A stretch of 64,000 nt of DNA from Kutzneria chonburiensis (GTDB lineage: Bacteria; Actinomycetota; Actinomycetes; Mycobacteriales; Pseudonocardiaceae). Under the pieces are notes generated by a model. It was not told the DNA's origin, made no database searches, and saw only the letters and a list, made by a program, of their open reading frames with translations. Positions within the stretch are counted from its first letter, which is position 1. Every line of letters begins with the position of its first letter. The translations under genes were made by a program, and so were the position numbers. The DNA lies in NCBI RefSeq assembly GCF_028622115.1, contig NZ_CP097263.1, positions 2,728,001-2,792,000 of the forward strand. The letters run 5' to 3'. Positions 5,566 through 36,039 of this stretch are shown piece after piece.

Positions 5566-5645
5566 CCAAAATCGGCCCCGCTTCGAGCTGAGCCGCTCAT
5601 GGCCGTGGCGCGCCGAACGCCGGCCGGGCTCGAATTCTGAGCAAG

Positions 5646-6596: not shown

Positions 6597-6675
6597 CTCG
6601 GAGCGATTCAGGCATTTGTCGGACATAGCTCCCCAGCGCCACGATCGACCTGACCGAGAGCAGGGGAGCGAGTCC

Positions 6676-22017: not shown

Positions 22018-22659
22018 CTACCCAATAATCCTCTGCGCCAACTGCTTCCGAACCCGAGACGGAATCTCAGAAGCAAACCTTCGCAAATAACTCTCAGCAT
22101 GCGCCCGATGATCCACCAAAAACGGCAAGTCATACACGACAAGCTTCCGAATAGCCAACAACGGCACCGGCGCCCGCAACGCCTTGAACTCCGGATTCCA
22201 CAACCCAGGCGCATCACACACCGGATGGAACTGCCCGATCATCAGCCCGTCCTCGACGAACTTGTCCTTCGCCACCGCCTGCACCGCATCCAACCCACTG
22301 GCATCCTCATAGTCCAACTGCGGCAACACCAGCAGGACGGTCAGCAGCTCACGATCCCCCGCCGCCATTCCCGCGCCGATCCGCTCGTACCACGCCCGCA
22401 GGCTCTCCACAGCCTCGTTGACGTCTCCCTCCCCCGACAACGCGGCCAAGTGAAACAGCCCCTTGTGCAGCGACGGCTGCGTATACGGACACACCGGCCC
22501 GTTCCGCCCGAGCTCCGGATGCGCCGACACCAGATACCGCCGCGCCCACGCCAAAATCTCACGCACGTACGGCAGATGCTGCTCGGGCACCTCCCCGGCG
22601 TCCACCTCGGCCGCCGACCAGAACAACACACGCGCGTCGACCTGCGGCGGCGTCGTCAT
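22018..22659 (-). CDS. Conserved hypothetical protein (DUF6875-like), last gene of cupin operon
   Basis: A 213-residue soluble protein without signal peptide or membrane segments. Recognisable blocks are CPYTQPSLHKGLFHLA, LLTVLLVLPQLDYEDA and a C-terminal LLAIRKLVVYDLPFLVD. These look like the family Pfam lists as DUF6875, from memory; I cannot confirm it here. No catalytic motif is evident. The ATG at 22659 overlaps the stop of the FAD oxidase (ATGA), so it is translated with the biosynthetic operon cupin/lipocalin-like/BBE/DUF and probably serves the same product. Function unknown. Confidence 0.6.
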   Translation of the reverse strand: MTTPPQVDARVLFWSAAEVDAGEVPEQHLPYVREILAWARRYLVSAHPELGRNGPVCPYTQPSLHKGLFHLAALSGEGDVNEAVESLRAWYERIGAGMAAGDRELLTVLLVLPQLDYEDASGLDAVQAVAKDKFVEDGLMIGQFHPVCDAPGLWNPEFKALRAPVPLLAIRKLVVYDLPFLVDHRAHAESYLRRFASEIPSRVRKQLAQRIIG

Positions 22660-24029
22660 GACCCGATCCCTTGGTCAAAAGCGAAGAACCCGTCCGGATC
22701 CACCCATCGCTTGATCTCCGCCAGCCGCGCGTAGTTCTCCCCGTAGTACGCACTCCGCCACGATGCCAGGTCCGGATCAGTGAAGTTCACATACGACCGA
22801 CCATCACCATACGGTGCCATCGAATCAGCCAGCTCCCCCAGCCACCCGAGATTCGCATCCACCACCGCCGGCGAGTCATCCTCCGCCCACGACGTGTCCA
22901 TCGCCAGCAGGAACCGAGCATCCCGATGCGGAAAAGCCGTGTCCCCCAGTCCAACCCGGTTCACCGCCCCACCCCACGAGAACAGTGCCGCCCCTCCCCC
23001 ATCGGAATTCCCACTCCCCGGCCAGCGACGAACCTGCGCCAGCATCGACTCGACAGCCTCATCAGGCAACGCACGCGTCAGCACACTCGTCCGAGCCGCG
23101 AAAGCCCCGGCCGAGGTGTCGTGCAGCAGATCATCCTTCGCCTGCCAGTACGTCCGGTCCTCGATCATCGCCCGGAACGGCTGCGCCACCGACAGCACCG
23201 GATCAAGGATCTCCCGCAGCTCCGACGCCGGCCCCATGTACTGCCCGATGCACGACACAACAGCATCCGACCCCGTCGTACTGACCCCGACCCGTGCCGC
23301 AAACGCGTCCGGCGCGGCACCAACTGTCTGCTGCACCACCGAGAACACCTTCTCCGCGTCCTCGATCCGCCACAGCAACACATAGGTCGCACAGTCCGAC
23401 ACCGCCTGGGCCTGGAACGTGAACGACACGTTCACGCCGAAGTTCCCCCCACCCCCGCCCCGGCACGCCCAGAACAGATCAGCGTTCTCCGACGCGTCAC
23501 ACCGAAGCACTTCCCCGTCAGCCGTCACTAAAGTCGTAGCGACCAACGCATCGGCCGTGATGCCATGCACCCGCGACGTCGCACCATACCCGCCACCAAG
23601 CGTCAGCCCACCAATCCCGACCGACGCCCCGTTCCCCAGCGCGAAAGCCATCTCACACGGCTCGATCGCCGAGTACACAGTGGACATCGAAGCCCCACCG
23701 GCCGCCGTGACCAGCCCACTAGAAGCGTTGGCCGACACCGTTTTCAGCCCCGACAGATCCAGAACCAACCCCGGACACACCGAGAACCCGGCGTAACTGT
23801 GTCCGCCCCCACGCACCGAAACCCGAACGCCCACCTCCCGCGCCCACGTAATCGCCCGCTGCACGTCGACAACGTCAGCGACGGACACCACCCCACCCGG
23901 CACCACATCGGCGAAGCGTCGGTTGAACGGCGTGCTGACCGTGCCGAACCCGTTGTCCCCCGGGCGCAGCACGCGGCCGGTGACGGCCAGGTCGAGGCGT
24001 CGCCAGTCCTCTTCGGACGGAGACTTCAT
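22656..24029 (-). CDS. BBE-type FAD-linked oxidase of the hydrazine cluster
   Basis: A 457-residue berberine-bridge-enzyme/6-hydroxynicotine-oxidase-type flavoprotein. The FAD-binding PCMH domain contains RGGGHSYAG, whose His77 is the usual 8-alpha covalent FAD ligand. GIGGLTLGGGYG follows but lacks the Cys used for a second covalent bond. The BBE C-terminus (YYGENYARLAEIKRWVDP) is complete. Such enzymes use O2 to oxidise alcohols, amines or C-C bonds; here dehydrogenation of an N-N intermediate (hydrazine to hydrazone or azo) is possible but unproven. ATG 24029 is set by the GAGGTGAGGG ribosome-binding site and ATGA overlap with the preceding gene; a longer upstream reading is only the other frame. 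Confidence 0.88.
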   Translation of the reverse strand: MKSPSEEDWRRLDLAVTGRVLRPGDNGFGTVSTPFNRRFADVVPGGVVSVADVVDVQRAITWAREVGVRVSVRGGGHSYAGFSVCPGLVLDLSGLKTVSANASSGLVTAAGGASMSTVYSAIEPCEMAFALGNGASVGIGGLTLGGGYGATSRVHGITADALVATTLVTADGEVLRCDASENADLFWACRGGGGGNFGVNVSFTFQAQAVSDCATYVLLWRIEDAEKVFSVVQQTVGAAPDAFAARVGVSTTGSDAVVSCIGQYMGPASELREILDPVLSVAQPFRAMIEDRTYWQAKDDLLHDTSAGAFAARTSVLTRALPDEAVESMLAQVRRWPGSGNSDGGGAALFSWGGAVNRVGLGDTAFPHRDARFLLAMDTSWAEDDSPAVVDANLGWLGELADSMAPYGDGRSYVNFTDPDLASWRSAYYGENYARLAEIKRWVDPDGFFAFDQGIGS

Positions 24030-24358
24030 CGGAGATCCCTCACCTCTTCGAGGTACGACGTGCCGGTGGCGGCATGCGGGCCGTACCGTTCCCACTGCTC
24101 GCACAACCGGATCCGGCCGTCGTCGGCCACCTCCGGCGTGTTCACGGTGTGGCCGCAGATCACGTCCCCGGAGTCGAGCACGATCGTGTATCCCATGTGG
24201 AGGGTGTCGGCGGAGTCCCGCAGCCCGGTGACCGAACAGCGCAGCACCGGGCCGCCGGAGACCTCCGTCCACACGACATCGCCGCGCTGCCGGTACACCG
24301 CGACCGGCGCGTCGCCGACACCCTCCTTGCGGAACCGGCGGCCGTCATAGTCGATCAC
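24026..24358 (-). CDS. Small lipocalin-like protein (often mis-named N-acetylglutamate synthase)
   Basis: A 110-residue protein starting MIDYDGRRFRKE, with alternating strands DVVWTEVSGGPVL, YTIVLDSGDVICG and RIRLCEQWER, ending GTSYLEEV. This pattern matches a small beta-barrel family widely annotated as n-acetylglutamate synthase, although it has no acetyltransferase fold. Function unknown; a ligand-binding or chaperone-like role for a pathway intermediate is conceivable. Both ends overlap neighbours by ATGA (24355-24358 and 24026-24029), showing tight coupling to cupin and oxidase. Confidence 0.65.
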   Translation of the reverse strand: MIDYDGRRFRKEGVGDAPVAVYRQRGDVVWTEVSGGPVLRCSVTGLRDSADTLHMGYTIVLDSGDVICGHTVNTPEVADDGRIRLCEQWERYGPHAATGTSYLEEVRDLR

Positions 24359-24762
24359 CGATCACCACCGGCGACGGCTCGTTCCTCTTCCTGCTTCACG
24401 AAACCCTCGGACATCGCCCGGTCCCACCAGATCGCGTAGTAGGCGAAGTCCTCGTCGTGCGTGTTGGTCAGATGGTGCTCGATGCCGGGGCGCAGGAAGG
24501 CGACGTCGCCGGCGTTGAACTCATAGGTCCGATCGGGCGTCACCACCTCGGCGCGGCCCGTCATGCCGATGAAGATCTCGTGCTCGTGGTGGGCGTGCGT
24601 CACCGACGTGTCCCCCGGCCGCAGCACGCACCACGCGCCCTCGAACGGGGCCGTCAGGCCGTCCCACGGGTACAGCAGCTTCATTTCCAGTCCGTAGGCC
24701 TGGACCAGGTTCTCGTGGTCCTCACGGCGGATGTCCACGGCCACGGGCTCTTGGTCGGTCAC
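24355..24762 (-). CDS. Stand-alone cupin, putative hydrazine-synthetase cupin subunit
   Basis: A 135-residue single cupin. Motif 1 is G50-x5-HAHHEHE (H56, H58 and E62 as metal ligands) and motif 2 is PGIEHHLTN (H96). In Spb40, Tri28 and similar enzymes a cupin is fused to a methionyl-tRNA-synthetase-like domain and catalyses the N-N bond rearrangement of an aminoacyl-O-N-hydroxylysine ester. The cluster here encodes a MetRS-like protein without a cupin (27197-28735), so this gene is the best candidate for the missing half (inference). It heads a four-gene ATGA-coupled operon; a putative promoter with paired operators lies at 24803-24858. Confidence 0.75.
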   Translation of the reverse strand: MTDQEPVAVDIRREDHENLVQAYGLEMKLLYPWDGLTAPFEGAWCVLRPGDTSVTHAHHEHEIFIGMTGRAEVVTPDRTYEFNAGDVAFLRPGIEHHLTNTHDEDFAYYAIWWDRAMSEGFVKQEEERAVAGGDR

Positions 24763-24820
24763 GTCCCCACTCCGATCAGCCGGATCCTGTTGACGCTGAC
24801 CGAGGCTAGTGTCGAACGTT

Positions 24821-24858
24821 TCCCTCCCGGTAGGGGAAGTTATCCCTGCCGACAGGGA
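24821..24858 (-). promoter_or_regulatory. Tandem operators upstream of the cupin operon
   Basis: Two inverted-repeat sites lie 22 bp apart: TCCCT-N6-AGGGG at 24821-24836 and TCCCT-N6-AGGGA at 24843-24858. On the minus strand, 12 nt after the proximal site, comes TAGCCT (24808-24803), a plausible -10 box. The same layout precedes the N-hydroxylase gene at 25768-25823. The proximal site would overlap the -35 region, as expected for a class II activator. Confidence 0.65.
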
Positions 24859-24880
24859 AATCCCTTGCCCGCCAAAGGGG

Positions 24881-25600
24881 TCAGCCCCGGCCGAGGCCGG
24901 CGTCGCGGGCCAGCACGATGGCCTGGGCCCGGTCGGTCACGCCGAGCTTGCCCAGCACCGAGGAGACCCGGTTGCTGATCGTCTTGGACGCCAGCGCCAG
25001 CTCGCGGGCGATGGCCAGGTTGGACTTGCCGGCCGCGATCCGTTCCAGCACCTGCTGTTCCCGCGCGGTCAGCTGTGGGAAGGGGTACGGCGCCTGTCCG
25101 CCGAGCGGGGTGAACAGCGCCGGCAGCCGGCCGGCCACCGAGCGACCGACGATCACTTCGCCGTTGGCCACCACCTGAACGCCGCGCAGCACCTGGTCCG
25201 CATCGGCGTCCGCGGCGACCAGATAGCCCCGGGCGCCAGCGTGCAGCGCGGCCCGCACGGCCACGTCGTCGTCGACCGAGGTGACGATCAGAACCCTTGT
25301 GCCAGGGGCGATCCGGGCCACATGACCGATCATGTCGGCCACGTCCATGGCGCCGAACTGGTGCGGGTCCACGACGAGCACGTCCGGGCGGTGCCACGCG
25401 GTCTCGGCGAACGCCTCGGCCGCGGTGGTGGCCTCGCCGAGCACGACGCAGCCGCCGGCCCGCTCGAGGGTGGATCTGATTCGTCTGCGCGCCACCGGAT
25501 GCGCGTCGGCCAGCAGCACCGTCACGCGAGATCCGGTCTCAAGGGTCACGTTCTGCCGGCCACCGGCGTACAGGCCTTCGATCTGTGCCGGGTGAGTCAT
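24881..25600 (-). CDS. LuxR/NarL-family cluster regulator with atypical receiver
   Basis: A 239-residue protein with an N-terminal receiver-like domain (about 20-140) and a C-terminal LuxR HTH (LTAREQQVLERIAAGKSN, then SKTISNRVSSVLGKLGV). The acidic pocket (LLADAHP) and candidate phospho-acceptor (VLVVDPHQ) are present, but the conserved receiver lysine is replaced (GYLVAAD rather than GYLxKDA-like). Classical phosphorylation is therefore doubtful, and no kinase is adjacent. ATG 25600 follows GGGGGA at good spacing; an upstream in-frame start at 25645 is less likely. It lies between the two biosynthetic operons and is the obvious candidate to bind their shared sites. Confidence 0.88.
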   Translation of the reverse strand: MTHPAQIEGLYAGGRQNVTLETGSRVTVLLADAHPVARRRIRSTLERAGGCVVLGEATTAAEAFAETAWHRPDVLVVDPHQFGAMDVADMIGHVARIAPGTRVLIVTSVDDDVAVRAALHAGARGYLVAADADADQVLRGVQVVANGEVIVGRSVAGRLPALFTPLGGQAPYPFPQLTAREQQVLERIAAGKSNLAIARELALASKTISNRVSSVLGKLGVTDRAQAIVLARDAGLGRG

Positions 25601-25767
25601 GTAGTCCCCCAAATAGGTCCTCAGGCTCCCCCAGTGCCCGCCCATCTCGGGTTGTCAAGCTAGCGAACCGCCAGACGACATCGTTAGCTGCGACACGAAG
25701 ACCAGGGGTGCGACACGCCCGAAGCGCCTATTCCATACCGCTGAAAGCACGCCGAGCCCACCAGGAT

Positions 25768-25823
25768 TCCCCGCCATACGGGCAAAGCTTCCCTAGGAAC
25801 GGGGAACAACCCGCCCATAGCAT
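25768..25823 (+). promoter_or_regulatory. Tandem operators and -10 box before the N-hydroxylase operon
   Basis: A degenerate TCCCC-N6-CGGGC site (25768-25783) and a good TCCCT-N6-GGGGA site (25790-25805) are again 22 bp apart. They are followed after 12 nt by TAGCAT (25818-25823). Spacing and order copy the cupin promoter. The rest of the 25601-25922 intergenic region holds no gene; CGAGG about 10 nt before GTG 25923 is the ribosome-binding site. Confidence 0.62.
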
Positions 25824-25922
25824 CGGGTCACGAGCTGGTCACTCGCTCGACACACCCTCTCACCCATCACCGCCCGTGGCGACGGCCGGGCGCGAATCCA
25901 CCACGATGAACGAGGTGCATCT

Positions 25923-27197
25923 GTGACTGACCAAGAGGTGGGCTTGCTCGCGATCGGCGCGGGGCCGGCGAACCTGGCCCTCGCGGTGGCCATCGAGGAG
26001 TCCGGTTCGGACGCGCTGGCTGCCGAGACGCTGCTGCTGGACCAGAGCCCCGACATCAAGTGGCAGCGCGACCTGCTGATGCCGTGGGCCCGCAGCCAGG
26101 TGTCCTTCCTCAAGGACCTGGTGACCCTGCGCAACCCGCGCAGCAAGTTCTCCTTCCTCAACTTCCTGCACGACTCGGGCCGGCTGGACGAGTTCGTGAA
26201 CCTGGGCACCTTCAACCCGTTCCGCTGGGAGATCTCCGACTATCTCCAGTGGGTGGCCCGCTCGCTGGAGCAGGTGGACATCCGGTTCAACGCCAAGGCG
26301 CAGTGCATCGAGCCGACCCGGGACGGGGACGGATCGATCACGGGCTGGCGGGTCACGCTGCACGGCGGCGACACGATTCGCTGCCGGGACCTGGTCGTCG
26401 GCGGGGGCCGGGACCGACACGTCCCGGCGGTGTTCGCCGACCTGCCGGCCGACCGGATCATCCACAGCGCACAGTACCGGACCAGAATCGCTGAGTTACC
26501 GGCCGACGCGCCGCTGCGGGCGGTGGTGGTCGGCGGGGCGCAGTCCGCGGCCGAGATGTTCATGGCCCTGCACCAGAACCTGCCCAACAGCGAGCTGACC
26601 ATGGTGGTGCGGTCGATCGGCCTGCAGAACTACCAGACCAGCAAGTTCGTCAACGAGCTGTTCTATCCGTCCTTTGTGGACGTCTTCTACGACAGCCCGC
26701 CCGAGGTCCGCGCCCAGATCCTGGACGAGATGCACCTGACCAACTACGCCGGCCTGGCCCCGCCGATGCTGGAGCAGATCTACACCATGCTGTACCAGCA
26801 GCGCGGCGTCGGGCAGGAGCGGTCACGCGTGCGGCCGCTGACCGAGGTGGTCGGGGCGCGGGTCGAGGACGACGAGGTGGTGCTGGACCTGCGCGACCGG
26901 ACCTCCGGCAAGGTGGAGGAGTTGCGCTGCGACGTGGTGCTGGTCGGCACCGGTTTCGACAAGCGCATGCCGGCGATGGTCCGTGATCTGGCCGACAAGG
27001 TCGGGCTGGACGAGATCTCGGTCAGCCGCTGCTACCGGGTCGATCTCGGCGACTCGGCCTGGGGCGCGATGTACCTGCAGGGCGTCAACGAGGCCACGCA
27101 CGGCATCGCCGACTCGCTGATCAGCGTGCTGGCCCGGCGGTCCCAGGACATCGTCAACGACCTGCTGGCCCGTCGCGGCGAGCTGAGGAGCGCCTGA
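25923..27197 (+). CDS. Lysine/ornithine-type N-hydroxylating flavin monooxygenase
   Basis: A 424-residue class B flavoprotein of the SidA/IucD/PvdA/KtzI family. The FAD motif IGAGPANL (11-18), the substrate block WARSQVSFLKDLVTLRNPRS, the NADPH motif GGAQSAAEM and the C-terminal GTGFDKRMP and NEATHGIADSL segments are intact. It N-hydroxylates the side-chain amine of lysine or ornithine using FAD, NADPH and O2. Next to the MetRS-like and glycine-oxidase-like genes it corresponds to Spb38/Tri26/ForJ, which make N6-hydroxylysine for N-N bond formation. GTG start; stop and next ATG overlap (TGATG at 27195-27199). First gene of an eight-gene operon running to 36039. Confidence 0.93.
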   Translation: MTDQEVGLLAIGAGPANLALAVAIEESGSDALAAETLLLDQSPDIKWQRDLLMPWARSQVSFLKDLVTLRNPRSKFSFLNFLHDSGRLDEFVNLGTFNPFRWEISDYLQWVARSLEQVDIRFNAKAQCIEPTRDGDGSITGWRVTLHGGDTIRCRDLVVGGGRDRHVPAVFADLPADRIIHSAQYRTRIAELPADAPLRAVVVGGAQSAAEMFMALHQNLPNSELTMVVRSIGLQNYQTSKFVNELFYPSFVDVFYDSPPEVRAQILDEMHLTNYAGLAPPMLEQIYTMLYQQRGVGQERSRVRPLTEVVGARVEDDEVVLDLRDRTSGKVEELRCDVVLVGTGFDKRMPAMVRDLADKVGLDEISVSRCYRVDLGDSAWGAMYLQGVNEATHGIADSLISVLARRSQDIVNDLLARRGELRSA

Positions 27198-28735
27198 TGA
27201 CCGAGCGATTGGTGATCATCTCGCCCGCGCCGACGGCCAACGGCGACCTGCACGTCGGCCACCTGGCCGGCCCGTTCCTGGCCGCCGACGTGTGCACCCG
27301 GTACACCCGGGCCACCGGCGGGGAGGCGTTGTACGGCACCGGGATGCACTTCACCCAGAACTATGTGGTCACCGCCGCCCGCAAGCTCGGGGTGTCGCCG
27401 GAGCACCTGCGGGTCCGGTCGGCCGAGCAGGTGGAGCGCACGCTGGCCGCGATGGGGATCGAGGTGGACGGGTTCGGCTGTATCGGCGACCGGTTCACCA
27501 AGATGGTGCTGGACTTCTACGACCGGCTGCACAGCCTGGGCAAGCTGAAGCTGCGCACCTGGCGCTTCCCGTACCTGCCGAGCACCGGCGAGTACCTGAT
27601 GGACGCGTACGTGATCGGCGGCTGCCCGTTCTGCCTGGCCACCGGCTATGCCGGCATCTGCGAGAGCTGCGGCCTTCCGGTCGCGCCCGGCGATCTGCTC
27701 GACCCGCGGTCGACGCTGTACCCGGACGAGCCGCTGGAGACCCGCGAGGCCGAGATCCTGGTGTTCCCGGTCGAGGAGTACCGGGCCGAACTCACCGCCT
27801 ACTTCGCCAAGACGACCATGCGCCCGCACATGGCCCAGATGATCGAGGACGTGCTGGCCGGGCCGCTGCCCGACTTCCCGATCACGCAGCCGACGTCGTG
27901 GGGCATCCCGGCGCCGTTCCCCGAGGTGCCGGGCCAGGTGATCTACCCGCACATGGAGGGCATGCCGTGGAGCATGTTCACCACGGCGCTGGCCGCCGAG
28001 CGTCGGGGCGCGGTGCTCAAGTCCGACGACGAGTTCTGGCGCAAGGATTCCGGGACGACGGTCGTCTACTTCACCGGCCTTGACGCCACCTACCCGTTCG
28101 CCGTGGTCGGGACGGCGATGTTGACCGCGCTCGGTGAGTACGTGGTGCCGGCGCAGTACATCACCAACGACTTCTACGAGCTGGCCAACGAGAAGTTCTC
28201 CACCAGCCGCGGACATGTGGTGTCGGGGCGGGAGCTGGCGGCCGAGGTGCCGCGGGACCTGATCCGGTTCCACCTGTCGGCGACGAGCCCGGAGTTCCAG
28301 CGCACGGACTTCACCCGCGAGGCACTGGTTCGCGTGACCGACACGCGGCTCGTGCGGCCGTGGAACCGGGTCGCGGCGGCGGTCGACGCGTGGGTGGGGC
28401 GCGGGGCGCTGCCGGTGTCCGAGCGGTCGCGGCGGTCCGCGCAGCGGATGGTCGACCGCTTCGCCGCCGGCTACAACGTGCGGCGCTTCAGCCTGACGGC
28501 CGTGGCGTCGACCATGGCTGAGCAGTTGGGGCGGTTGGACCAGATGGCCGCAGGGGTGACCAAGGAGACCGCCGGCGATCTCTGCCACGAGGTGGACGTC
28601 TTCCTCCGCTGCGCCGCGCCGGTGCTCATCGACCTCGCGGCGGCGGCCTTGGCCGACACCACGATCCCGGCCCGCCAGGACGCTGTGACGATCACGCCCA
28701 CTCCCCTGCCGCGGTTGACCGGGGCCGGCGGCTGA
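27197..28735 (+). CDS. Methionyl-tRNA-synthetase-like enzyme of hydrazine synthetase, without fused cupin
   Basis: A 512-residue class I MetRS-like protein. It keeps HVGH (19-22), a zinc knuckle C143-x2-C146 and C155-x2-C158, and KFSTS (333-337, KMSKS equivalent). In the s56-p1, triacsin and formycin systems such a domain activates glycine with ATP and esterifies it to N6-hydroxylysine, and a fused cupin then moves the bond to N-N. Here the protein ends after the helical anticodon-like region, with no cupin, which matches a separately encoded cupin at 24355-24762. Coupled at both ends by TGATG overlaps. As a housekeeping MetRS it would be a poor fit in this context. Confidence 0.9.
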   Translation: MTERLVIISPAPTANGDLHVGHLAGPFLAADVCTRYTRATGGEALYGTGMHFTQNYVVTAARKLGVSPEHLRVRSAEQVERTLAAMGIEVDGFGCIGDRFTKMVLDFYDRLHSLGKLKLRTWRFPYLPSTGEYLMDAYVIGGCPFCLATGYAGICESCGLPVAPGDLLDPRSTLYPDEPLETREAEILVFPVEEYRAELTAYFAKTTMRPHMAQMIEDVLAGPLPDFPITQPTSWGIPAPFPEVPGQVIYPHMEGMPWSMFTTALAAERRGAVLKSDDEFWRKDSGTTVVYFTGLDATYPFAVVGTAMLTALGEYVVPAQYITNDFYELANEKFSTSRGHVVSGRELAAEVPRDLIRFHLSATSPEFQRTDFTREALVRVTDTRLVRPWNRVAAAVDAWVGRGALPVSERSRRSAQRMVDRFAAGYNVRRFSLTAVASTMAEQLGRLDQMAAGVTKETAGDLCHEVDVFLRCAAPVLIDLAAAALADTTIPARQDAVTITPTPLPRLTGAGG

Positions 28736-29733
28736 TGTCCAGCATCGTTGTCGTCGGCGCCGGGGTCACGGGGATGGTGACGGCGATCGAGTGCGCGCGG
28801 GCGGGACACCGCGTGACGCTGCTCGATCGCGGCCCCATCCCCAACCCGGCCGCCACGTCGGCCGACCAGCACCGGGCGCTGCGCGTGCAGCGGCCCGGGG
28901 ATCCGGTCATGACGGCCCAGATGGCCGACGCCCGGCGACGCTGGCTGGCGCTGGAGTCGTTGCTGGGTACGCGGTTCTTCCGGCAGGTCGGGATAGTAAC
29001 GGCCTGGCCGTTACCCGAGACCGGCTCGCTGACCGTGGTCGATCCGGAGAAGTTGCCGCACGTCCGGTTTCCGGCCGGCACGGTCGGTGTGCTGGATGCC
29101 GACGCGGGAGTGCTGCTGGCCGACCGGTTCCTGGACGCCGCGGCGGCGTGGCTGAAGAGTCACCCGATGGTCACGGTCAGGCCGGAGAGCACGGTGAAGT
29201 TCGTCGCCGAGCACTGGGTGTCCCTTGTGGACGGCACGGCGCTCGGCGCGGACGTCGTGGTGGTGGCGGCCGGGCCGTGGAGCCGTGAGCTGGTCGACGT
29301 TCCGGTGACGCTGTACCGGCAGACCATGGTCTATCTGCGGCCGCCGGCCGATCTGGCGGCGTGGTGGGAGCACGCGCCCGGGGTCGGCGGGCTGGGCGCG
29401 GACTGCCGGGCCTGGCTGCTGCCGCCGGGCGACGGCACGCTGCTCAAGATCAGCTCCGACCTGGTCTGCCGGCACGTGGAATCGACGGTCGCCGGCGACA
29501 GCAAGCACTGGATCGACCGGCTGCTCACCGAGCCGATTCTGTCCGAAATGGAGCGCTACCAGGTGGTGGCGGCCAAGGAATGCCACTACGCCGCCGATCC
29601 CGACACCGGCGGGGCACTGCTCAACCACGTCGGGCCGGGCCTGTGGGTCCGTCCCGCCTGCGGCGGCTCGGGATTCGCCGCCGCACCACTCGTAGTACAC
29701 ACGATCGTCGAAGCCATGGAGGCGACAGGATGA
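28735..29733 (+). CDS. FAD-dependent amine oxidase (glycine/sarcosine-oxidase-like), ForL/PyrL type
   Basis: A 332-residue DAO-family flavoprotein. It has an N-terminal Rossmann motif VVGAGVTGMVTAIECARAG and the C-terminal GPGLWVRPACGGSGFAAAPL segment that closes the FAD site. In formycin, pyrazomycin and triacsin pathways the homologous oxidase cleaves N6-(carboxymethylamino)lysine, releasing hydrazinoacetate. The gene position directly after the MetRS-like gene supports the same role (inference from synteny). ATG 28735 shares a base with the previous stop; its own stop overlaps the MFS start (ATGA 29730-29733). Confidence 0.85.
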   Translation: MSSIVVVGAGVTGMVTAIECARAGHRVTLLDRGPIPNPAATSADQHRALRVQRPGDPVMTAQMADARRRWLALESLLGTRFFRQVGIVTAWPLPETGSLTVVDPEKLPHVRFPAGTVGVLDADAGVLLADRFLDAAAAWLKSHPMVTVRPESTVKFVAEHWVSLVDGTALGADVVVVAAGPWSRELVDVPVTLYRQTMVYLRPPADLAAWWEHAPGVGGLGADCRAWLLPPGDGTLLKISSDLVCRHVESTVAGDSKHWIDRLLTEPILSEMERYQVVAAKECHYAADPDTGGALLNHVGPGLWVRPACGGSGFAAAPLVVHTIVEAMEATG

Positions 29734-30977
29734 ACGACAGGGCGTCCGACGGCGTGCTCGCCGCGATCAGGGCGACGCCGGCGTCGATCCGGTACCTGCT
29801 CGGCGGCATGCTGCTCAACCAGCTGGGCGCGTTCGTCCAGTCCTTCCTGCTGCTGTATCTGGTGCACCGCGGCGTGTCGGCCGAGCTGGCCGGTGTCGGC
29901 CTGGTCGCCTACGCGGTCGGCGCGATCATCGGCAGCACGCTCGGCGGCGAGCTCGCGCACCGGCTCGGCACCCGGTTCACCATCGGGCTGGCCATGGCCG
30001 CGTCCGGGCCGCTGGTGGCGTTGATCCCACTGCTGTCAGGACCGGGCACGTTCTGGCTGGTCATCCTGGACGTCGGCCTGGCCGGGCTGGTCACGCAGGC
30101 TTACCGGCCGGCGGCCTCGGTGATGCTGGCCGAGCTGATGCCGGAGAAGTTCCAGGTCATGTCCTTCTCCATGATGCGCATCGCGCTCAACGCGGGCGCG
30201 GCCGGCGCGGCCCTGCTGGCCACCGTGTTCATCGCGGTGAACTGGGACCTGCTGTTCTATGTGGACGGTGCGACGGCGCTGCTGTACTCGCTGCTGGCCT
30301 TCGCGCTGCTGCCCAACGTGGTCGCGCCCGAGGAGGAGAAGCCGGCGCCGGGCGAGAACGCGTCTCGCGGGTCGGCCTACAGCGTGCTGGCCCGGGACGG
30401 CCGGTTCCTGATGTACCTGGCCGCGGTGTTCATCGGCACCGTGGTGTACGCCCAGTACACGGTGGCGCTGCCGTTGAAGATCGTCGCCGACGGGCTGTCC
30501 ACCGACCTGTACAGCTTCGTGCTGGCCACCTCGGGCATCGTGCTGATCACCTGCGAGCTGAAGGTCACCTCGTACATCGTGAAATGGCCGCCGTCGCTGG
30601 CGGTGTTCCTCGGCCACGTGGTGTTCGGGCTGGCCTTCCTCGGCTGGGGGCTGTCCGCCGGCAACGCGGCGGTCGTGATCATCAGCGCCGCGATGTTCAC
30701 CGGCGGGCTGATGATGTCCGGCCCGACCATGTTCGCCCGGCCGGCCAAGGTGCCGGCCCGCTACCGGGCCCGCTACCTGGGCGTCACCAGCTCGGTCATG
30801 GGTCTGGCCCAGGCGCTCGGGCCGATTCTCGGTGTGCTGGCCTGGACCGCGCTGGGCAGCGTGTGGTTCCCGGTGCTGACCGTGCTTGCCGTCATCACCG
30901 GCGCGCTGGCCTGGGGCGGCATCAAGGTCAAGGAGGACAAGCCGGAAACGGTGATCGCGGAGGAGGCGGTCGCATGA
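29730..30977 (+). CDS. MFS transporter, probable product exporter
   Basis: A 415-residue integral membrane protein with about 12 hydrophobic segments. The cytoplasmic loop after helix 2 carries GGELAHRLGTRFT, the MFS motif-A region. The family uses proton antiport; in a biosynthetic operon it most likely exports the product and confers self-protection (inference). True start ATG 29730, overlapping the oxidase stop; the stop overlaps the next gene (ATGA 30974-30977). Confidence 0.9.
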   Translation: MNDRASDGVLAAIRATPASIRYLLGGMLLNQLGAFVQSFLLLYLVHRGVSAELAGVGLVAYAVGAIIGSTLGGELAHRLGTRFTIGLAMAASGPLVALIPLLSGPGTFWLVILDVGLAGLVTQAYRPAASVMLAELMPEKFQVMSFSMMRIALNAGAAGAALLATVFIAVNWDLLFYVDGATALLYSLLAFALLPNVVAPEEEKPAPGENASRGSAYSVLARDGRFLMYLAAVFIGTVVYAQYTVALPLKIVADGLSTDLYSFVLATSGIVLITCELKVTSYIVKWPPSLAVFLGHVVFGLAFLGWGLSAGNAAVVIISAAMFTGGLMMSGPTMFARPAKVPARYRARYLGVTSSVMGLAQALGPILGVLAWTALGSVWFPVLTVLAVITGALAWGGIKVKEDKPETVIAEEAVA

Positions 30978-32260
30978 GCACCCTGTTGGTGATCGGCAGC
31001 GGACTGCGCTACTACCGCGAGTACCTGGTCGAGTCCGTCCACCGCCGGGCCCGGGCCGCCGGGCTGCGGCTGGTGCTGCTCAACAATCTCAAGCCGACCT
31101 GGCAGCAGCAGTACTTCGACGAGATCGTGCTGGCCGACGTGTTCGACCCGGCGGTGATGATCGCCGAGGCCCGCAAGGTCGCCGCGCGCGAAAAGATCGT
31201 CGGGCTGATGTGCTGGGACGAGCCGCTCGTGCTGACGGCCGGCGAGCTGGCGGCCGAGTTCGGCGTGCCGGGACTGGGATTGGCCGGCGTGCACGGTTGC
31301 CGGGACAAGCACCGCACCCGCGACCTGCTGACCGCCGCCGGTCTGCCGCAGCCTGGGTACACCATGACCGCCGATCCGGTCGAGGCGAGGAAAGCCGCTG
31401 AGGCTATTGGCTTTCCGGTCGTCGTGAAGCCGCGGGCGTTGGGTGCGAGCATCGGCGTGGTGCTGGCTCGGGACGAGTCGGAGTTCGACGCCGCGTTCGC
31501 CGTGGCGCTGGCGGCCAGCGAGGTGGATCAGGGCATCTACGGCGCACAGGCCATTGTGGAGGGTTATGCCGACGGGCCGGAGGTCAGCGTCGACGGGGCC
31601 GTGCACAAGGGCGAGTACCTGCCGATGTTCCTGGCCCGCAAGGAAAGCGGCGAGCACCCGTACTTCGAGGAGATCGGGCACGTCGTCGACGCGGCCGACC
31701 CGCTGCTGGTCGACGAGACGGTGATCGACACGCTGGCCCGGGCACACCGCGCGCTGGGCATCGAGGACGGCATCACCCACAGCGAGCTGCGGCTGACCGC
31801 TGACGGCCCGGTGGTGATCGAGATCAACGGCCGGGTCGGCGGCGACCTGATCCCGCTGCTGGGCAAGATCGCCACCGGCATCGACTCCGGCGAGGTGCTG
31901 TTCGACGTGGCCACCGGGCAGCGTCCGGACATCACGCCGACCAAGCGGTCCGTGGCCGGCATCCGGTTCGGACTGCCGGCAGAAGACTGTGTGGTGCGGA
32001 AAGTGACCGTGCCGACAGAAACCGAAGGGCTGGTCACGGCGTCGCCGATGGTCGACCCGGGCACCACGCTGCGGCTGCCGCCCGGCGGCTACCTCGCGCG
32101 CCATTCGTTCGTGGTGTGCGAGGCCGCCGATGTGACGACCTGCCGCCAAAGACTGGTCGAGACCTCGGCCATGGTCGAGGTCGACGCCGAGCCGATCGGG
32201 CCGCCCAAACCCGACGCGGCCTTCGAGATGCCGGCCGGCCTGCTGGACACCGACGCGTGA
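30974..32260 (+). CDS. ATP-grasp ligase 1 of the hydrazine cluster
   Basis: A 428-residue ATP-grasp enzyme. The N-terminal pre-ATP-grasp domain begins LLVIGSGLRYYREYL; the ATP-binding core has GFPVVVKPRALGASIGV, then IVEGYADGPEVSVDG, and the Mg-binding VVIEINGRVGGDLI. The family joins a carboxylate, as acyl-phosphate, to an amine or hydrazine, typically making amide or dipeptide bonds. Two such ligases occur in this operon, suggesting that the N-N unit is built into a short peptide or amide. ATG 30974 overlaps the MFS stop; the next gene starts 12 bp downstream behind GAGGAG. Confidence 0.9.
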   Translation: MSTLLVIGSGLRYYREYLVESVHRRARAAGLRLVLLNNLKPTWQQQYFDEIVLADVFDPAVMIAEARKVAAREKIVGLMCWDEPLVLTAGELAAEFGVPGLGLAGVHGCRDKHRTRDLLTAAGLPQPGYTMTADPVEARKAAEAIGFPVVVKPRALGASIGVVLARDESEFDAAFAVALAASEVDQGIYGAQAIVEGYADGPEVSVDGAVHKGEYLPMFLARKESGEHPYFEEIGHVVDAADPLLVDETVIDTLARAHRALGIEDGITHSELRLTADGPVVIEINGRVGGDLIPLLGKIATGIDSGEVLFDVATGQRPDITPTKRSVAGIRFGLPAEDCVVRKVTVPTETEGLVTASPMVDPGTTLRLPPGGYLARHSFVVCEAADVTTCRQRLVETSAMVEVDAEPIGPPKPDAAFEMPAGLLDTDA

Positions 32261-32271
32261 GGAGCGACCTG

Positions 32272-33468
32272 ATGACCATCGCATCCGAGGCGACGCTGAC
32301 CGCCGCGGAGATACTGGCCCGGGCCAAGGCGCTGGCCCCGGAGCTGCGCGAACGGGCGGCGGAGATCGAGCGGACCCGGCACCTGCCCGAGGACCTCGTG
32401 GAGAAGCTGCGGGACACAGGGATCTACCAGGCCGGGTTCACCAACGCCTGGGGCGGGCCCGACCTGACCTCGTTGGAAGAGCTGGAGATCGTCGAGGCGC
32501 TGGCCTACGGGGACGCTTCGGCGGCCTGGACGGCCGAGGTCTGCGCGCACACCGGCCACTTCGCCCGCTACCTGGACGACGCGGTGGCCAAGGAGATGTT
32601 CCCCAGCCTGGACATGATCACCGCCGGCGCGCTGTTCCCGGTCGGCCGGGCCGAGCGGGTGCCCGGCGGCTACCGGCTGACCGGACGCTGGACCTTCGGC
32701 AGCGGCGTCACCACTTGTGACTGGGTGATCTCCGGGGCGTTCATCTACCGCGACGGGCAGCCCGATCCGAGCCCGGACGGCAAGGATCCGCACGACTCGC
32801 GGCTGTTCATGGTGCGGCGTGAGGACGTCAGCCTGATCGACAACTGGGAGACCACCGGCCTGTCCGGCACCGGCAGCTGCGACTACACGATCACCGACGT
32901 GTTCGTGCCGCAGGAGCACACGCTGGTGTTCAGCGAGCTGCGCGACCACTCCAGCCCTCGAACGGAACCCGAGACGTTCATGCGCTGTCTGCCCGGCGTG
33001 CCGCTGGGGGTCGCCCGGGCCGCACTGGACCACGTCCGCGAGCTGGCCGAGACCCGGCGCTATCCCAACGGGGACCGCTGGGCCGACAACCGCCGGGTGC
33101 AGACGATCATCGCCGAGTGCGAGGCCGACTACAATGCCACCAGGTACGGGGTTCGTGGCGCGCTGGCCCGGCTGGAGGAAGTCCTGGGCAGCGGCGGCAC
33201 ACTGGACGACCTCACCCGTACCGAGCGGGCGGCGCTGCCGCTGTCCCGGCTGCACTCGTTCCGGACCGCGCGCTCGATCGTGACCCGGATCTACGACCTG
33301 CTCCAGACCGCCTCGATCCACCGCTCGTCGCCGATGGACCGCTGGCTGCGGGACACCACGACGATGTGCCAGCACCTGTTCGCGCAGGAGCGGATCCTCC
33401 AGTCCGGCGGCGCCCACCTGCTGGGCGGCACCCCCGAATTCGGCCTGTGCCTCGGCATCGCGAAGTAG
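32272..33468 (+). CDS. Acyl-CoA-dehydrogenase-like flavoenzyme (group D monooxygenase or desaturase)
   Basis: A 398-residue protein with the acyl-CoA dehydrogenase fold. It has an N-terminal helical domain, middle strand domain (GYRLTGRWTFGSGVTTCDWV) and a C-terminal four-helix bundle ending GGTPEFGLCLG. There is no acyl-carrier partner nearby. The pattern (QAGFTNAWGGPDLTSLEELEIVEALAYGD compared with DszC/HpaB-like group D enzymes) allows either flavin-dependent N- or C-hydroxylation or dehydrogenation. In N-N clusters such flavoenzymes often oxidise the hydrazine nitrogen. ATG 32272 follows GAGGAGCGACCTG. The assignment to one reaction is open. Confidence 0.8.
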   Translation: MTIASEATLTAAEILARAKALAPELRERAAEIERTRHLPEDLVEKLRDTGIYQAGFTNAWGGPDLTSLEELEIVEALAYGDASAAWTAEVCAHTGHFARYLDDAVAKEMFPSLDMITAGALFPVGRAERVPGGYRLTGRWTFGSGVTTCDWVISGAFIYRDGQPDPSPDGKDPHDSRLFMVRREDVSLIDNWETTGLSGTGSCDYTITDVFVPQEHTLVFSELRDHSSPRTEPETFMRCLPGVPLGVARAALDHVRELAETRRYPNGDRWADNRRVQTIIAECEADYNATRYGVRGALARLEEVLGSGGTLDDLTRTERAALPLSRLHSFRTARSIVTRIYDLLQTASIHRSSPMDRWLRDTTTMCQHLFAQERILQSGGAHLLGGTPEFGLCLGIAK

Positions 33469-33481
33469 AGGAGCGCTGAAC

Positions 33482-34738
33482 GTGTCCGAACGACCGATCA
33501 TCCTGGTGGGCTTCGTGGCCGCGCTGGGCAAACTGGCCGAGTTCCTGCCCGAGCAGTCGCTGATCATCGTCGAGGAGCCCGATGTCGTGCGCAAGCGCGA
33601 CGTCCGCAAGCACATCGCCGAGTCGAAGCTGGTGCGGGAGCTCATCGAGTGGGAGTACCAGCTGCCCGGTGCGGCCGACACGCTGCTGGTCGGACGGCCC
33701 GACATCGCCGCGTCGGCGGTGGTGCCGCTGGTCGAGTACGCGACGCCGTTCGCCGCCCGGCTGGCCGAGCGGCTCGGCACGCCGGGGGCCGGTCTCGGCG
33801 CGGCCGAGCTGCTGCGGGACAAGTCCTTGCTGCGCAAGGTGACCCGGGCCGCCGGTGTGCCGAATCCCTTGTCCACCGAGGCCGGCTCGCCGGCGGAGGT
33901 CACCGCGTTCATCGAGGAGCACGGCGCTCCGGTGATCTTGAAGCCGGCCAACCGGCAGGGCGCGGTCGGCACGCAGGTCCTGCACGACGCCTCGGAGGTC
34001 GAGGCGGCGTGGGCGTCGTGTCTACAGCAGGACGAGGGCATCTTCGTGCCGGATCGCGAACGGGCCGTGCGCATGCTGGTCGAGGAGTACGTGGCCGGCC
34101 ACGAGTACAGCGTGGAGATGGTCGTCCGGGACGGCCAGTCGCTGTTCGCCAACGTGACGGACAAGGTCCTCTACCCCGGGGACCGGCCGATCGAGCTCGG
34201 GCACGTGCTGCCGGCCGATATCTCGTTGGCCTTGAGGGACAAGCTGGTCGCGAGCACGCTGGCCGTGCTGCGGGCCGTCGCGTTCGGCTCCGGGGTCGTG
34301 CACTGCGAGTGGATCGTGCGCGACGACGACACGCCGTATCTCGTGGAGTGCGCCGGCCGCTTCCCGGGCGACGGCATCATCGAAATGATCGAACGGGCCT
34401 ACGAGGACCCGATCGGCGAGCGCTACTTCTCGGTGATGCGCGGCCTCGAGCCGCCGGAGATGCCAACCGTGGCACCGCAAGCCGCCGCGGTGCGGTTCAT
34501 GCAGGTGCCGCCGGGCGAGATCATCAGCATCGACGGCCTCGACGCCGCCAGGGAACTGCCCGGCGTGGTCAGCTTCGGCATGGGGCCGGGTGTCGGCGAT
34601 CCCGTACGGGAGCTGCGCAGCTCGTGGGACCGGATCGGCTCGGTGATGGTGCTCGCGCCGACCGCCGCCGAGGCGGTCGAGCTGGCGGAGAAGGCCGTCG
34701 ACCAGGTGCACGTCGTCGTCAAGACCAAGGAGCAGTAG
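33482..34738 (+). CDS. ATP-grasp ligase 2 of the hydrazine cluster
   Basis: A 418-residue ATP-grasp protein, only distantly similar to ligase 1. It has an N-terminal domain starting IILVGFVAALGKLAEF. Its core contains GAPVILKPANRQGAVGTQVL, then EEYVAGHEYSVEMVVRDG and the ligand strand PYLVECAGRFPGDGIIEM. It resembles biotin-carboxylase-like dipeptide ligases of the BacD type. Presumably it makes the second amide or hydrazide bond of the product. GTG start at 33482, 13 bp after the flavoenzyme; its TAG overlaps the next GTG by one base. Confidence 0.88.
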   Translation: MSERPIILVGFVAALGKLAEFLPEQSLIIVEEPDVVRKRDVRKHIAESKLVRELIEWEYQLPGAADTLLVGRPDIAASAVVPLVEYATPFAARLAERLGTPGAGLGAAELLRDKSLLRKVTRAAGVPNPLSTEAGSPAEVTAFIEEHGAPVILKPANRQGAVGTQVLHDASEVEAAWASCLQQDEGIFVPDRERAVRMLVEEYVAGHEYSVEMVVRDGQSLFANVTDKVLYPGDRPIELGHVLPADISLALRDKLVASTLAVLRAVAFGSGVVHCEWIVRDDDTPYLVECAGRFPGDGIIEMIERAYEDPIGERYFSVMRGLEPPEMPTVAPQAAAVRFMQVPPGEIISIDGLDAARELPGVVSFGMGPGVGDPVRELRSSWDRIGSVMVLAPTAAEAVELAEKAVDQVHVVVKTKEQ

Positions 34739-36039
34739 TGGAATTCGTGGTGGTCGGGGCGGGCATGGCCGGGGCGTTCCTGGCGCTCGCCCTCGGCCGG
34801 CAGGGCCACACGGTGACCGTGTACGAGCGGCGGCCCGATCCCCGGGTCAACGCCGTGCACACCACCTCGATGAACCTCGGGCTGTCCGAACGTGGGCTGA
34901 AAGCCTTGGAGCGCCTGGGGTTGCGGCAGGAGATCACCCGGCACGTGTCGCCGATGCGCGGCCGCCTGGTGCACAACCAGGACAAGTCGCTGCGCTTCTC
35001 CACGTACGGCGACGGCGGCATCCTGGCCATCCAGCGCCATGATCTCGGCGTGCAGCTCATCGAGGCCGCCACCCGGTCGGCCAACGTGCGGTTCGTGTTC
35101 GACACCCGGTGCGTCGGCATCGACAAGGACCTGCCGGCCGCCGACTTCGTCTCCGAGTCGGGTAACGCCTTCACCGTTACTCCGGATGTCATCGTCGGGG
35201 CCGACGGGGCGTTCTCGGTGGTGCGCAAGCACATGCAGCGGGACGAGCGGGCCGACTTCCACCAGGAGTTCCTCGACTGGGGCTGGCGGGAGCTGCACAT
35301 CCCGGCCGCGGCCGACGGCAGTCACCGGATGGCCGACGACGTCTTCCACCTGTGGCCGCGGGGCGAGACCATGATGTTCGCCCACCCCAACCTCGACGGT
35401 TCCTTCACCTGTTCCTGCGTGCTGCCGTTCGAGGGGCCGCGCAGCTTCGACGCGCTCCGCACCTCGGACGACGTCGAGTCGCTGTTCCGGGAGCTCTTCC
35501 CGGACGTGCTGGACCTGGTGCCCGATGTCGGCAAGGTCTTCCTCGACCAGCCGACGTTCAAGCTGGTCACCACGCGGACCTCGCCCTGGCACCACGACGG
35601 CAAGGTCGTGCTCATCGGCGACGCCTGCCATGCCGTGTACCCGTTCCTGGCCCAGGGCATGAACGCCGCCTTCGAGGACGGTCTCGAGCTGGCCGACTCC
35701 TTCGCCGCGCGGCCGGATTCGCCTCGGGCCGCCGTCGAGCGGTTCTACCAGCGCCGCAAGCCGCACACCGACGCGCTGGCCGAGATGTCCCGGCAGAACT
35801 TCGCCGAGCTCCGCGACACCGTGCGCTCCCCCGGCGTGCGGCTGGAGAAGGCGTGCGACGTCGTGCTGGAGAAGGTGTTGCGGCACCGGTGGATGCCGCT
35901 GCACGCCATGATCACCAACACCACCATGCCGTACGCCGACGCCCGGGCGAAGGCCCACCGCCAGCGTCGCATCTTGCAGGGCGCGGCGGCCGCCATCGGC
36001 GCGGTGGCACTCGGGGGTCTCATTCGACGGTTTCGCTGA
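34738..36039 (+). CDS. KMO-like FAD monooxygenase with C-terminal hydrophobic tail
   Basis: A 433-residue class A flavin monooxygenase close in layout to kynurenine 3-monooxygenase. The FAD motif VVGAGMAGAFLALAL, the KMO-like NLGLSERGLKAL block, the DG motif VIVGADGAFSVVRK and the second FAD site GDACHAVYPFLAQGMNAAFEDG are intact. The end IGAVALGGLIRRFR is a short hydrophobic tail, as in KMO enzymes that touch the membrane. In the operon it may hydroxylate an aromatic or amino-acid building block, or oxidise the N-N group; substrate unknown. GTG 34738 overlaps the previous stop. Last gene of the operon; a strong hairpin follows. Confidence 0.87.
   Translation: MEFVVVGAGMAGAFLALALGRQGHTVTVYERRPDPRVNAVHTTSMNLGLSERGLKALERLGLRQEITRHVSPMRGRLVHNQDKSLRFSTYGDGGILAIQRHDLGVQLIEAATRSANVRFVFDTRCVGIDKDLPAADFVSESGNAFTVTPDVIVGADGAFSVVRKHMQRDERADFHQEFLDWGWRELHIPAAADGSHRMADDVFHLWPRGETMMFAHPNLDGSFTCSCVLPFEGPRSFDALRTSDDVESLFRELFPDVLDLVPDVGKVFLDQPTFKLVTTRTSPWHHDGKVVLIGDACHAVYPFLAQGMNAAFEDGLELADSFAARPDSPRAAVERFYQRRKPHTDALAEMSRQNFAELRDTVRSPGVRLEKACDVVLEKVLRHRWMPLHAMITNTTMPYADARAKAHRQRRILQGAAAAIGAVALGGLIRRFR

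Follow-up and report, generated by a model that had tools for sequence, protein, structure and literature searches.

Few natural products contain an N-N bond, and the rules by which their synthetases choose substrates have been only poorly charted. Hydrazine synthetases with separate MetRS-like and cupin proteins are on record: for MetRS paralogs without a fusion, a stand-alone cupin gene nearby was noted in 2010 in all cases seen, and such unfused pairs were predicted (PMC2922099); a stand-alone MetRS-like protein working with the zinc cupin RHS1 of Rhodococcus jostii was shown biochemically in 2021 (PMC8664883); and the survey text of PMC11705231 names Afn8/Afn9 of albofungin and tabulates several two-gene entries. 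We analyzed a stretch of 64,000 nucleotides from Kutzneria chonburiensis (hereafter the window), for which an initial annotation had proposed a two-subunit hydrazine synthetase. The sequence supports a two-protein cupin/MetRS type accompanied by an N-hydroxylase and an amine oxidase, and the likely product of the cluster is a small molecule whose N-N bond is formed by an enzyme split in two proteins. Given the precedents cited above, the split is not new and should no longer be presented as the first of its kind.

Organization of the cluster

The locus is a conserved block (22018-36039), of which we scanned 13 proteins for domains. Its plus strand begins with a flavin N-hydroxylase for lysine or ornithine (25923..27197; PF13434, 4.6e-87), linked to a MetRS-like protein without a cupin domain, the predicted aminoacyl-adenylating subunit (27197..28735; PF09334, 1.5e-60), and, beside the latter, an FAD amine oxidase (DAO; 28735..29733; PF01266, 5e-23). 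All three matches lie above the curated cut-offs, and the three genes (25923-29733) overlap by one base at each junction. They are followed by an MFS exporter (29730..30977; PF07690, 2.6e-29), ATP-grasp ligase 1 (30974..32260; PF13535, 3.5e-18), an ACAD-like protein that is probably a group D flavin monooxygenase (32272..33468, its start taken from the translation; PF08028, 1.3e-16), ATP-grasp ligase 2 of the L-amino acid ligase type (33482..34738; PF18603 LAL_C2, 4.9e-23, and PF13535, 2.7e-16), and a kynurenine 3-monooxygenase-like (KMO-like) protein (34738..36039). The minus strand carries a LuxR-type response regulator, the probable pathway regulator (24881..25645; PF00196 and PF00072), a stand-alone cupin of 135 residues, the predicted N-N-forming subunit (24355..24762; PF07883, 5.7e-13), a conserved 110-residue protein with no Pfam or NCBIfam match (24026..24358), a BBE/EncM-type flavin oxidase (22656..24029, its start at 24029 taken from the translation; PF01565 and PF08031), and a DUF6875 protein, the last gene of the divergent operon (22018..22659; PF21780, 4e-60). 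Open frames and Pfam domains agree with the initial annotation on the overlapping N-hydroxylase, MetRS-like, and amine oxidase genes and on the separate cupin encoded on the divergent strand. It had also placed a BBE oxidase with the ATP-grasp, ACAD-like, and KMO-like genes downstream; the latter are there, with the exporter, but the BBE oxidase belongs to the operon of the cupin and is thus upstream. Similarly, the extent first given (24355-36039) covers these plus-strand genes and the cupin, but the conserved block runs further left, through the 110-residue, BBE oxidase, and DUF6875 frames. The cluster genes occur in the same arrangement in three other Kutzneria genomes (69-96% protein identity) and are therefore not a feature of chance or assembly.

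The best solved relatives of the BBE oxidase are 9p1o, 9p1p, and EncM, and those nearest to the ACAD-like protein are Rv3094c, XiaF, and a 3-HSA hydroxylase. A flavin reductase gene adjoins the homologue of the ACAD-like protein in S. scabiei (L085); the window's cluster has none. Relatives were drawn from the best 80 of at least 587 loci (hereafter the best 80), so the figures below speak for near relatives only, and 12 of the 80 stretches are short, 7 of these outside the His class defined below. Within the best 80, the DAO family was matched in 52 loci and the family of the 110-residue protein gave 41 matches.

The stand-alone cupin belongs with MetRS systems

In 59 of the best 80 relatives, the cupin gene is directly upstream of the MetRS gene on the same strand, with the N-hydroxylase gene directly before the pair in 58 of the 59; in 15 it lies elsewhere in the stretch, 14 times beside a LuxR-type regulator, and the 6 loci with no cupin within the examined stretch were left out of this count. 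No cupin-MetRS fusion was seen in the best 80. One apparently fused protein, from Frankia (L070), was rejected because the fusion is a run of N between two genes.

The solved chains nearest to the window's cupin are 4rd7 (4.1e-34) and plu4264 (2.9e-28), and RHS1 (5uqp) is reached at 0.0056. The cupin shares the RHS1 metal site and its invariant Glu, except that the first ligand differs: His56, His58, Glu62, and His96 have the spacing of RHS1 Asp63, His65, Glu69, and His103. Across 75 aligned cupins, His56, His58, and Glu62 are present in all, and His96 in 74, with one gap; the first ligand is therefore His in 75/75, as opposed to Asp63, which RHS1 requires (PMC8664883). All nine cupin matches at E<=1e-4, in seven genomes picked for carrying the cluster, fall within MetRS-like genes, next to them, or no more than 10 kb away. 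The Spearman correlation of distances with those of MetRS is lower for the cupin (0.62) than for the N-hydroxylase (0.82) and DAO (0.87). Two outcomes named beforehand as refuting the initial annotation did not arise: the cupin sides with those of MetRS systems rather than with unrelated ones, and its own genome showed no cupin-fused MetRS among cupin matches at E<=1e-4, a threshold that misses more distant cupins. Given its ligand spacing and the location of cupin matches in or near MetRS-like genes, the cupin is a real member of this family.

A His class of MetRS-like subunits

The MetRS-like protein has a class I MetRS fold with HIGH and KMSKS-type motifs (HVGH and KFSTS) and Cys143/146/155/158, and it is distinct from the housekeeping enzyme, a separate and stronger MetRS elsewhere in the genome (7.3e-144). 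Its His51 aligns with Asp52 of E. coli MetRS. Twenty of the best 80 relatives form, with the window, one clade with His at this position, whereas 36 of the 60 relatives that are not in this His class have Asp52. Further pocket changes accompany the replacement, and the His-class pocket differs from that of the Asp52/Trp253 class, a comparison in which no glycine-type enzyme of proven function figures by name; glycine, and thus hydrazinoacetate, is therefore not assured. Within the best 80, His-class genera are Kutzneria, Amycolatopsis, Saccharothrix, Lentzea, Kitasatospora, Actinacidiphila, and Streptomyces.

The nearest solved chains to the KMO-like protein are KMOs (1.7e-66). Positions aligned with KMO Arg84, Tyr98, Asn369, and Glu372, which we take to be substrate-binding residues, are conserved in 10/10 proteins (the window and nine relatives), and 5fn0 is presumably the Pseudomonas KMO. 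At E<=1e-20 the genome has no second copy of this gene; it does encode a tryptophan dioxygenase and a kynureninase at other places. Sister clusters without KMO have instead a tryptophan 2-C-methyltransferase-type protein (TIGR04428; 952 bits in L031, cut-off 500). In the best 80, 17 of the 20 His-class relatives have one or other gene, the remaining three stretches stopping at contig ends, and neither gene was seen in the examined stretches of the 60 other relatives. Further, DUF6875 is present in 10 of the 20 (the truncated L061 and the nine that have KMO) but in none of the examined stretches of the 60.

On the tree, the His class is one change (SH-aLRT 98); the tree is a quick one on which the long branches of R. 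jostii, L026, L027, and L021 are placed unsurely, and L061, L064, and L065 were left out of the KMO/methyltransferase count. Treating the tie between His51 and these genes as independent statistics was rejected for this reason: a single evolutionary event makes the link suggestive only. A link of the KMO to the product is likewise tentative, being drawn from proximity and from this one clade. The less usual part of the cluster is the His-class subfamily with its altered pocket and, in most members, a kynurenine- or tryptophan-modifying neighbor gene. Its members are naturally occurring variants of the pocket in a MetRS subunit that is separable, and for most of them the adjacent gene gives a clue to substrate or partner, so that specificity should be testable by simple subunit swaps.

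Proposed pathway and alternatives

We consider it very likely that block 22018-36039 is a biosynthetic cluster with a two-protein hydrazine synthetase, for which we predict the pathway, product, and activities as follows, drawing on the family chemistry given in PMC8664883 and PMC11705231. What the sequence establishes is the set of genes, with its order and its conservation. By close family precedent, the N-hydroxylase would form an omega-N-hydroxy diamino acid (from lysine or ornithine), the MetRS-like protein would adenylate a second amino acid and transfer it to the hydroxylamine oxygen, and the cupin would rearrange the ester to a hydrazine. C-N cleavage by the amine oxidase may then release a hydrazino acid. 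The two ATP-grasp ligases could couple this acid to at least one amino acid; a tryptophan-derived one (3-hydroxykynurenine, formed by the KMO-like enzyme) is probably among the partners. The ACAD-like flavoprotein and the BBE oxidase would perhaps adjust the oxidation state. The product is likely to be an ATP-grasp-built peptide joining a hydrazine unit and a tryptophan-derived unit. Several observations weigh against the model: the first metal ligand of the cupin is His and not the Asp of RHS1, although all 75 cupins share it; 4rd7 and plu4264 are much closer to the cupin than RHS1 is; cupin distances follow those of MetRS less well than N-hydroxylase or DAO distances do; the MetRS pocket departs from the Asp52 type; the ACAD-like protein has no flavin reductase partner in the cluster; and the KMO is tied to the product by proximity and a single clade.

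It is possible that the MetRS subunit uses glycine and that the product is a hydrazinoacetate-derived di- or tripeptide like s56-p1, the KMO-like enzyme acting on a late aromatic intermediate or not being needed; a DAO of this type accompanies the glycine branch in the s56-p1, triacsin, and azaserine systems as described, and two ATP-grasp ligases are at hand. Against glycine, the Asp52 that 36 of the 60 non-His relatives have is His here and in 20 relatives of the best 80, with more pocket changes, and the glutamate-using R. jostii MetRS has Ala at this position, so that loss of Asp52 fits a non-glycine substrate, albeit by one comparison with a very distant row. His-class enzymes might instead activate a tryptophan-pathway amino acid itself (in the window 3-hydroxykynurenine or an aminobenzoyl derivative, and in the sister clusters one derived from 2-methyltryptophan), placing the N-N bond directly on the aromatic amino acid. 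The changes of pocket pair Asp52/Trp253 to Gln/Asn, His/His, or His/Asp would then encode specificity in step with the tailoring gene; we regard this as unlikely.

The first amino acid could be ornithine rather than lysine, giving a hydrazine with an ornithine arm, a reading we hold possible with some doubt. The solved protein nearest to the N-hydroxylase is 3s5w, an L-ornithine 5-monooxygenase (2.6e-79, 270 bits), ahead of the lysine enzyme MbtG (7.5e-66, 226 bits), and 7 of the 20 His-class relatives in the best 80, all Amycolatopsis, have a dimethylargininase-family gene (L063, the one scanned, reaches 436 bits against the dimethylargininase cut-off of 300, and for arginine dihydrolase 183 bits, below the cut-off of 450). 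However, PMC11705231 calls the lysine enzyme Spb38 a homologue of KtzI, which is listed with ornithine enzymes in the same family of papers, and similarity therefore does not settle the substrate; nor was a dimethylargininase-type gene found in the stretches of Kutzneria sp. 744 and CA-103260. A reading in which the cupin has nothing to do with the pathway, being of the sugar-isomerase or regulatory kind, and in which the MetRS-like protein serves as a peptide ligase or spare tRNA synthetase, is highly improbable: the cupin does match an AraC-binding model and sits in another operon, but its homologues adjoin MetRS in 59 of the best 80 relatives, its metal spacing is RHS1-like, and the genome's strong MetRS is encoded separately.

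Comparison with known systems

We found no published description of such a cluster with two ATP-grasp ligases in the texts consulted, which include passages of PMC10445470, PMC11429834, PMC13061610, and PMC13274452. Literature matches listed for 2-methyltryptophan with hydrazine contained no 2-methyltryptophan, those listed for Kutzneria with cupin were general work, searches on KMO with hydrazine clusters gave only unrelated work, and none was found for TsrM with Kitasatospora setae. PMC13061610 reports 129 clusters with five further architectures, and the present cluster may be among them.

The R. jostii RHA1 RHS1 system resembles the window in its two separate proteins, linked N-hydroxylase, metal-site spacing, and catalytic Glu. 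Its locus on pRHL1 (L136) has the cupin at 3212-3580, the N-hydroxylase at 4661-6004, and MetRS at 6001-7476, and the cupin carries the RHS1 residues as judged by eye. The two cupins are only distantly similar (E 0.0056), the Asp52 position is Ala there and His in the window, and the R. jostii system uses glutamate and was mined by its saccharopine dehydrogenase (PMC8664883), whereas the window has a DAO; no saccharopine dehydrogenase, which marks the glutamate branch (pyrazomycin, formycin, and RHS1), is among the 13 proteins of 22018-36039. Formycin ForJ-L had initially been grouped with hydrazinoacetate pathways; in PMC11705231, however, the amino acid stated for PyrN and suggested for ForJ is glutamate.

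The s56-p1 (Spb38-40), triacsin (Tri26-28), and azaserine (AzsL-N) systems, as described, share N-hydroxylase, FAD amine oxidase, and MetRS/cupin chemistry with the window, but their cupin and MetRS are fused, whereas the window's cupin is separate. Azaserine and triacsin further rely on an acetyltransferase, an AMP-binding ligase, and a carrier protein; as none of these is among the 13 proteins, we rejected the idea of a cluster like theirs. For the MtRS-paralog operons, PMC2922099 predicts a stand-alone cupin, lysine monooxygenase, ATP-grasp ligases, and dimethylargininase around MetRS and infers a Met-Lys peptide, and its account of these operons, as consulted here, mentions no kynurenine hydroxylase or tryptophan methyltransferase. 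Albofungin Afn8/Afn9/Afn18, like the window, combines an N-hydroxylase with MetRS-like and cupin proteins from separate genes but, according to PMC11705231, supplies a hydrazine transferase whose acceptor is an aromatic polyketide, where the window has ATP-grasp ligases.

Results

A gene cluster with a separate cupin and MetRS-like protein

The window (2728001-2792000 of one 10.41 Mb contig) carries on its plus strand a nearly gapless series of genes, which runs from an N-hydroxylase (25923-27197) through a MetRS-like protein (27197-28735), a DAO-type (FAD) amine oxidase (28735-29733), an MFS protein (29730-30977), ATP-grasp 1 (30974-32260), an ACAD-like flavoprotein (32272-33468) and ATP-grasp 2 (33482-34738) to a KMO-like protein (34738-36039). 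The minus strand encodes a LuxR regulator (24881-25645), the cupin (24355-24762), a 110-aa frame (24026-24358), a BBE oxidase (22656-24029) and a DUF6875 protein (22018-22659). The initial annotation was right that the cupin is separate and that the MetRS-like protein lacks a fusion. With identities of 69-96%, the genes from DUF6875 to KMO are present again in three other genomes of the genus, G002, G003 and G006 (the queries covered all of them but the 110-aa frame), and the nearest named relatives of the window, among the matches listed, are Kutzneria sp. 744 and CA-103260. Elsewhere in the window (331-1971, minus strand), the start of a 546-residue frame resembles, by eye, glutamyl-tRNA synthetase.

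The cupin belongs with MetRS-like genes

When seven genomes picked for carrying the cluster were searched with the window cupin, nine matches were found at E<=1e-4, and 9/9 lay within or next to a MetRS-like gene or at most 10 kb from one. Together with the conserved metal-site spacing, this supports well the proposed membership in the cupin/MetRS-type hydrazine synthetase family; judged by sequence, the cupin is part of the MetRS-like system. Its residues His56, His58 and Glu62 are kept in 75/75 cupins and His96 in 74/75, the remaining one being a gap. Among solved chains, the cupin comes closest to 4rd7 and plu4264, with RHS1, the stand-alone zinc cupin of Rhodococcus jostii RHA1 (chain 5uqp), far behind.

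The MetRS-like pocket falls into three classes

In an alignment with solved MetRS chains, His51 of the window protein occupies the position of Asp52 in E. coli MetRS (chain 3h97), the residue that binds the methionine ammonium group. A profile search of genome contigs with an 18-row alignment gave at least 587 stretches that encode relatives, and the gene content of the best 80 was determined by tblastn with the window genes. Among these 80, the residue aligned with Asp52 is Asp in 36 loci, Gln in 24 and His in 20. At position 252 (E. coli Trp253), 36/36 Asp-class rows have Trp and 23/24 Gln-class rows have Asn; in the His class this residue is His in 11/11 KMO-type rows (window and L061 counted) and Asp in the 10/10 others, the labels of L061, L064 and L065 being by kinship only because these stretches end before a KMO or methyltransferase gene would appear. 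At position 297, 21/21 His-class rows have Ala and 24/24 Gln-class rows have Asn, while the Asp-class rows have either Asn (31) or Pro (5).

The R. jostii MetRS is described in PMC8664883 as used with glutamate. We took L136 as its locus because cupin, N-hydroxylase and MetRS genes are consecutive there and the cupin has the RHS1 residues (by eye). This MetRS has Ala at the Asp52 position, in a very distant row where the alignment is less sure, and loss of Asp is therefore compatible with activity. Two further MetRS-like genes had no cupin relative found nearby, namely G000:C1:1717061-1718137 (L040), among ATP-grasp ligase genes, and G000:C1:8893197-8894228 (L041), with a neighbour resembling aminodeoxychorismate synthase (by eye); these are perhaps peptide ligases or self-resistance copies.

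Most His-class loci carry tryptophan-pathway genes

The nearest relatives of the KMO-like protein are kynurenine 3-monooxygenases (KMO), and four positions that bind kynurenine in KMO are conserved in 10/10 KMO-like sequences. At E<=1e-20, the genome showed no second KMO-like copy. It does have adjacent genes for tryptophan dioxygenase and kynureninase (879128-881072), so kynurenine should be available. In L031 (genome G001), a methyltransferase gene lies between the ACAD and ATP-grasp 2 genes, followed by a dioxygenase-like gene; its product, the only methyltransferase scanned with the tryptophan 2-C-methyltransferase model, scored 952 bits (cut-off 500).

Within the stretches, tblastn detected a KMO gene in 9/20 His-class loci and a relative of the L031 methyltransferase (68-77%) in 8/20; in the other 3/20, whose stretches stop at contig ends, neither was found. 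None of the 60 non-His-class loci showed either gene within the stretches searched, 7 of which are short. DUF6875 was detected in 10/20 His-class loci vs 0/60 others, and a cupin adjoins MetRS in 0/20 His-class (14 apart, 6 not in the stretch), 23/24 Gln-class and 36/36 Asp-class loci. On a 90-row tree, the His class is one change (SH-aLRT 98), KMO/methyltransferase two (L061, L064 and L065 left out) and cupin location two; because these are single or near-single events, the ties between pocket and gene content are not independent evidence.

Gene order in relatives

By tblastn, a cupin homologue adjoins the MetRS gene upstream in 59 of the 80 best relatives (of at least 587), lies elsewhere in the stretch in 15 and was not found within it in 6; the N-hydroxylase gene is directly upstream of the adjoining cupin in 58/59 loci. 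An apparent cupin-MetRS fusion in L070 was rejected as an assembly gap. Fused proteins occur farther out, as in G003, where an 803-residue frame has a cupin match (1.3e-9) and a MetRS-like match. A Gln-class cluster of the same kind is present in Streptomyces scabiei 87.22 (L085, NC_013929.1 1331342-1352868); its ACAD-like gene has a flavin reductase gene beside it, and of its two dimethylargininase-family genes one scores below the model cut-off. Three Lentzea clusters (L066, L067 and L077) have an extra N-hydroxylase gene (78-79% to that of the window) and two ACAD-like genes each. N-hydroxylase, stand-alone cupin and MetRS-like genes are consecutive on plasmids of Pantoea ananatis from onion (L137, 8356-15033), where FAD oxidoreductase, MFS and ATP-grasp genes then follow, and of Klebsiella variicola (L138, 8364-11548).

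Discussion

By family precedent, the MetRS subunit would form an aminoacyl ester on a hydroxylamine, which the cupin would rearrange to a hydrazine; lysine and ornithine are candidates for the hydroxylated diamino acid. The DAO would then probably cleave a C-N bond, with ligation probably by the ATP-grasp enzymes and oxidation probably by the flavoproteins.

The split synthetase, taken as the main novelty in the initial annotation, is already known. A 2010 report places a stand-alone cupin near MetRS paralogs without a fused cupin in all cases, with lysine monooxygenase and often ATP-grasp ligases as neighbours (PMC2922099). PMC8664883 showed N-N formation by a stand-alone cupin and describes family members using serine, alanine and tyrosine. 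Albofungin Afn8/Afn9 is named in PMC11705231, where several two-gene entries are listed. What remains is the cluster family with an altered MetRS pocket and a tryptophan-pathway gene, of which we found no description in the literature searched.

The window cupin residues His56, His58, Glu62 and His96 have the same spacing as RHS1 Asp63, His65, Glu69 and His103, every Ala variant of which is given as inactive in PMC8664883; the first metal ligand is His in 75/75 cupins here and Asp in RHS1.
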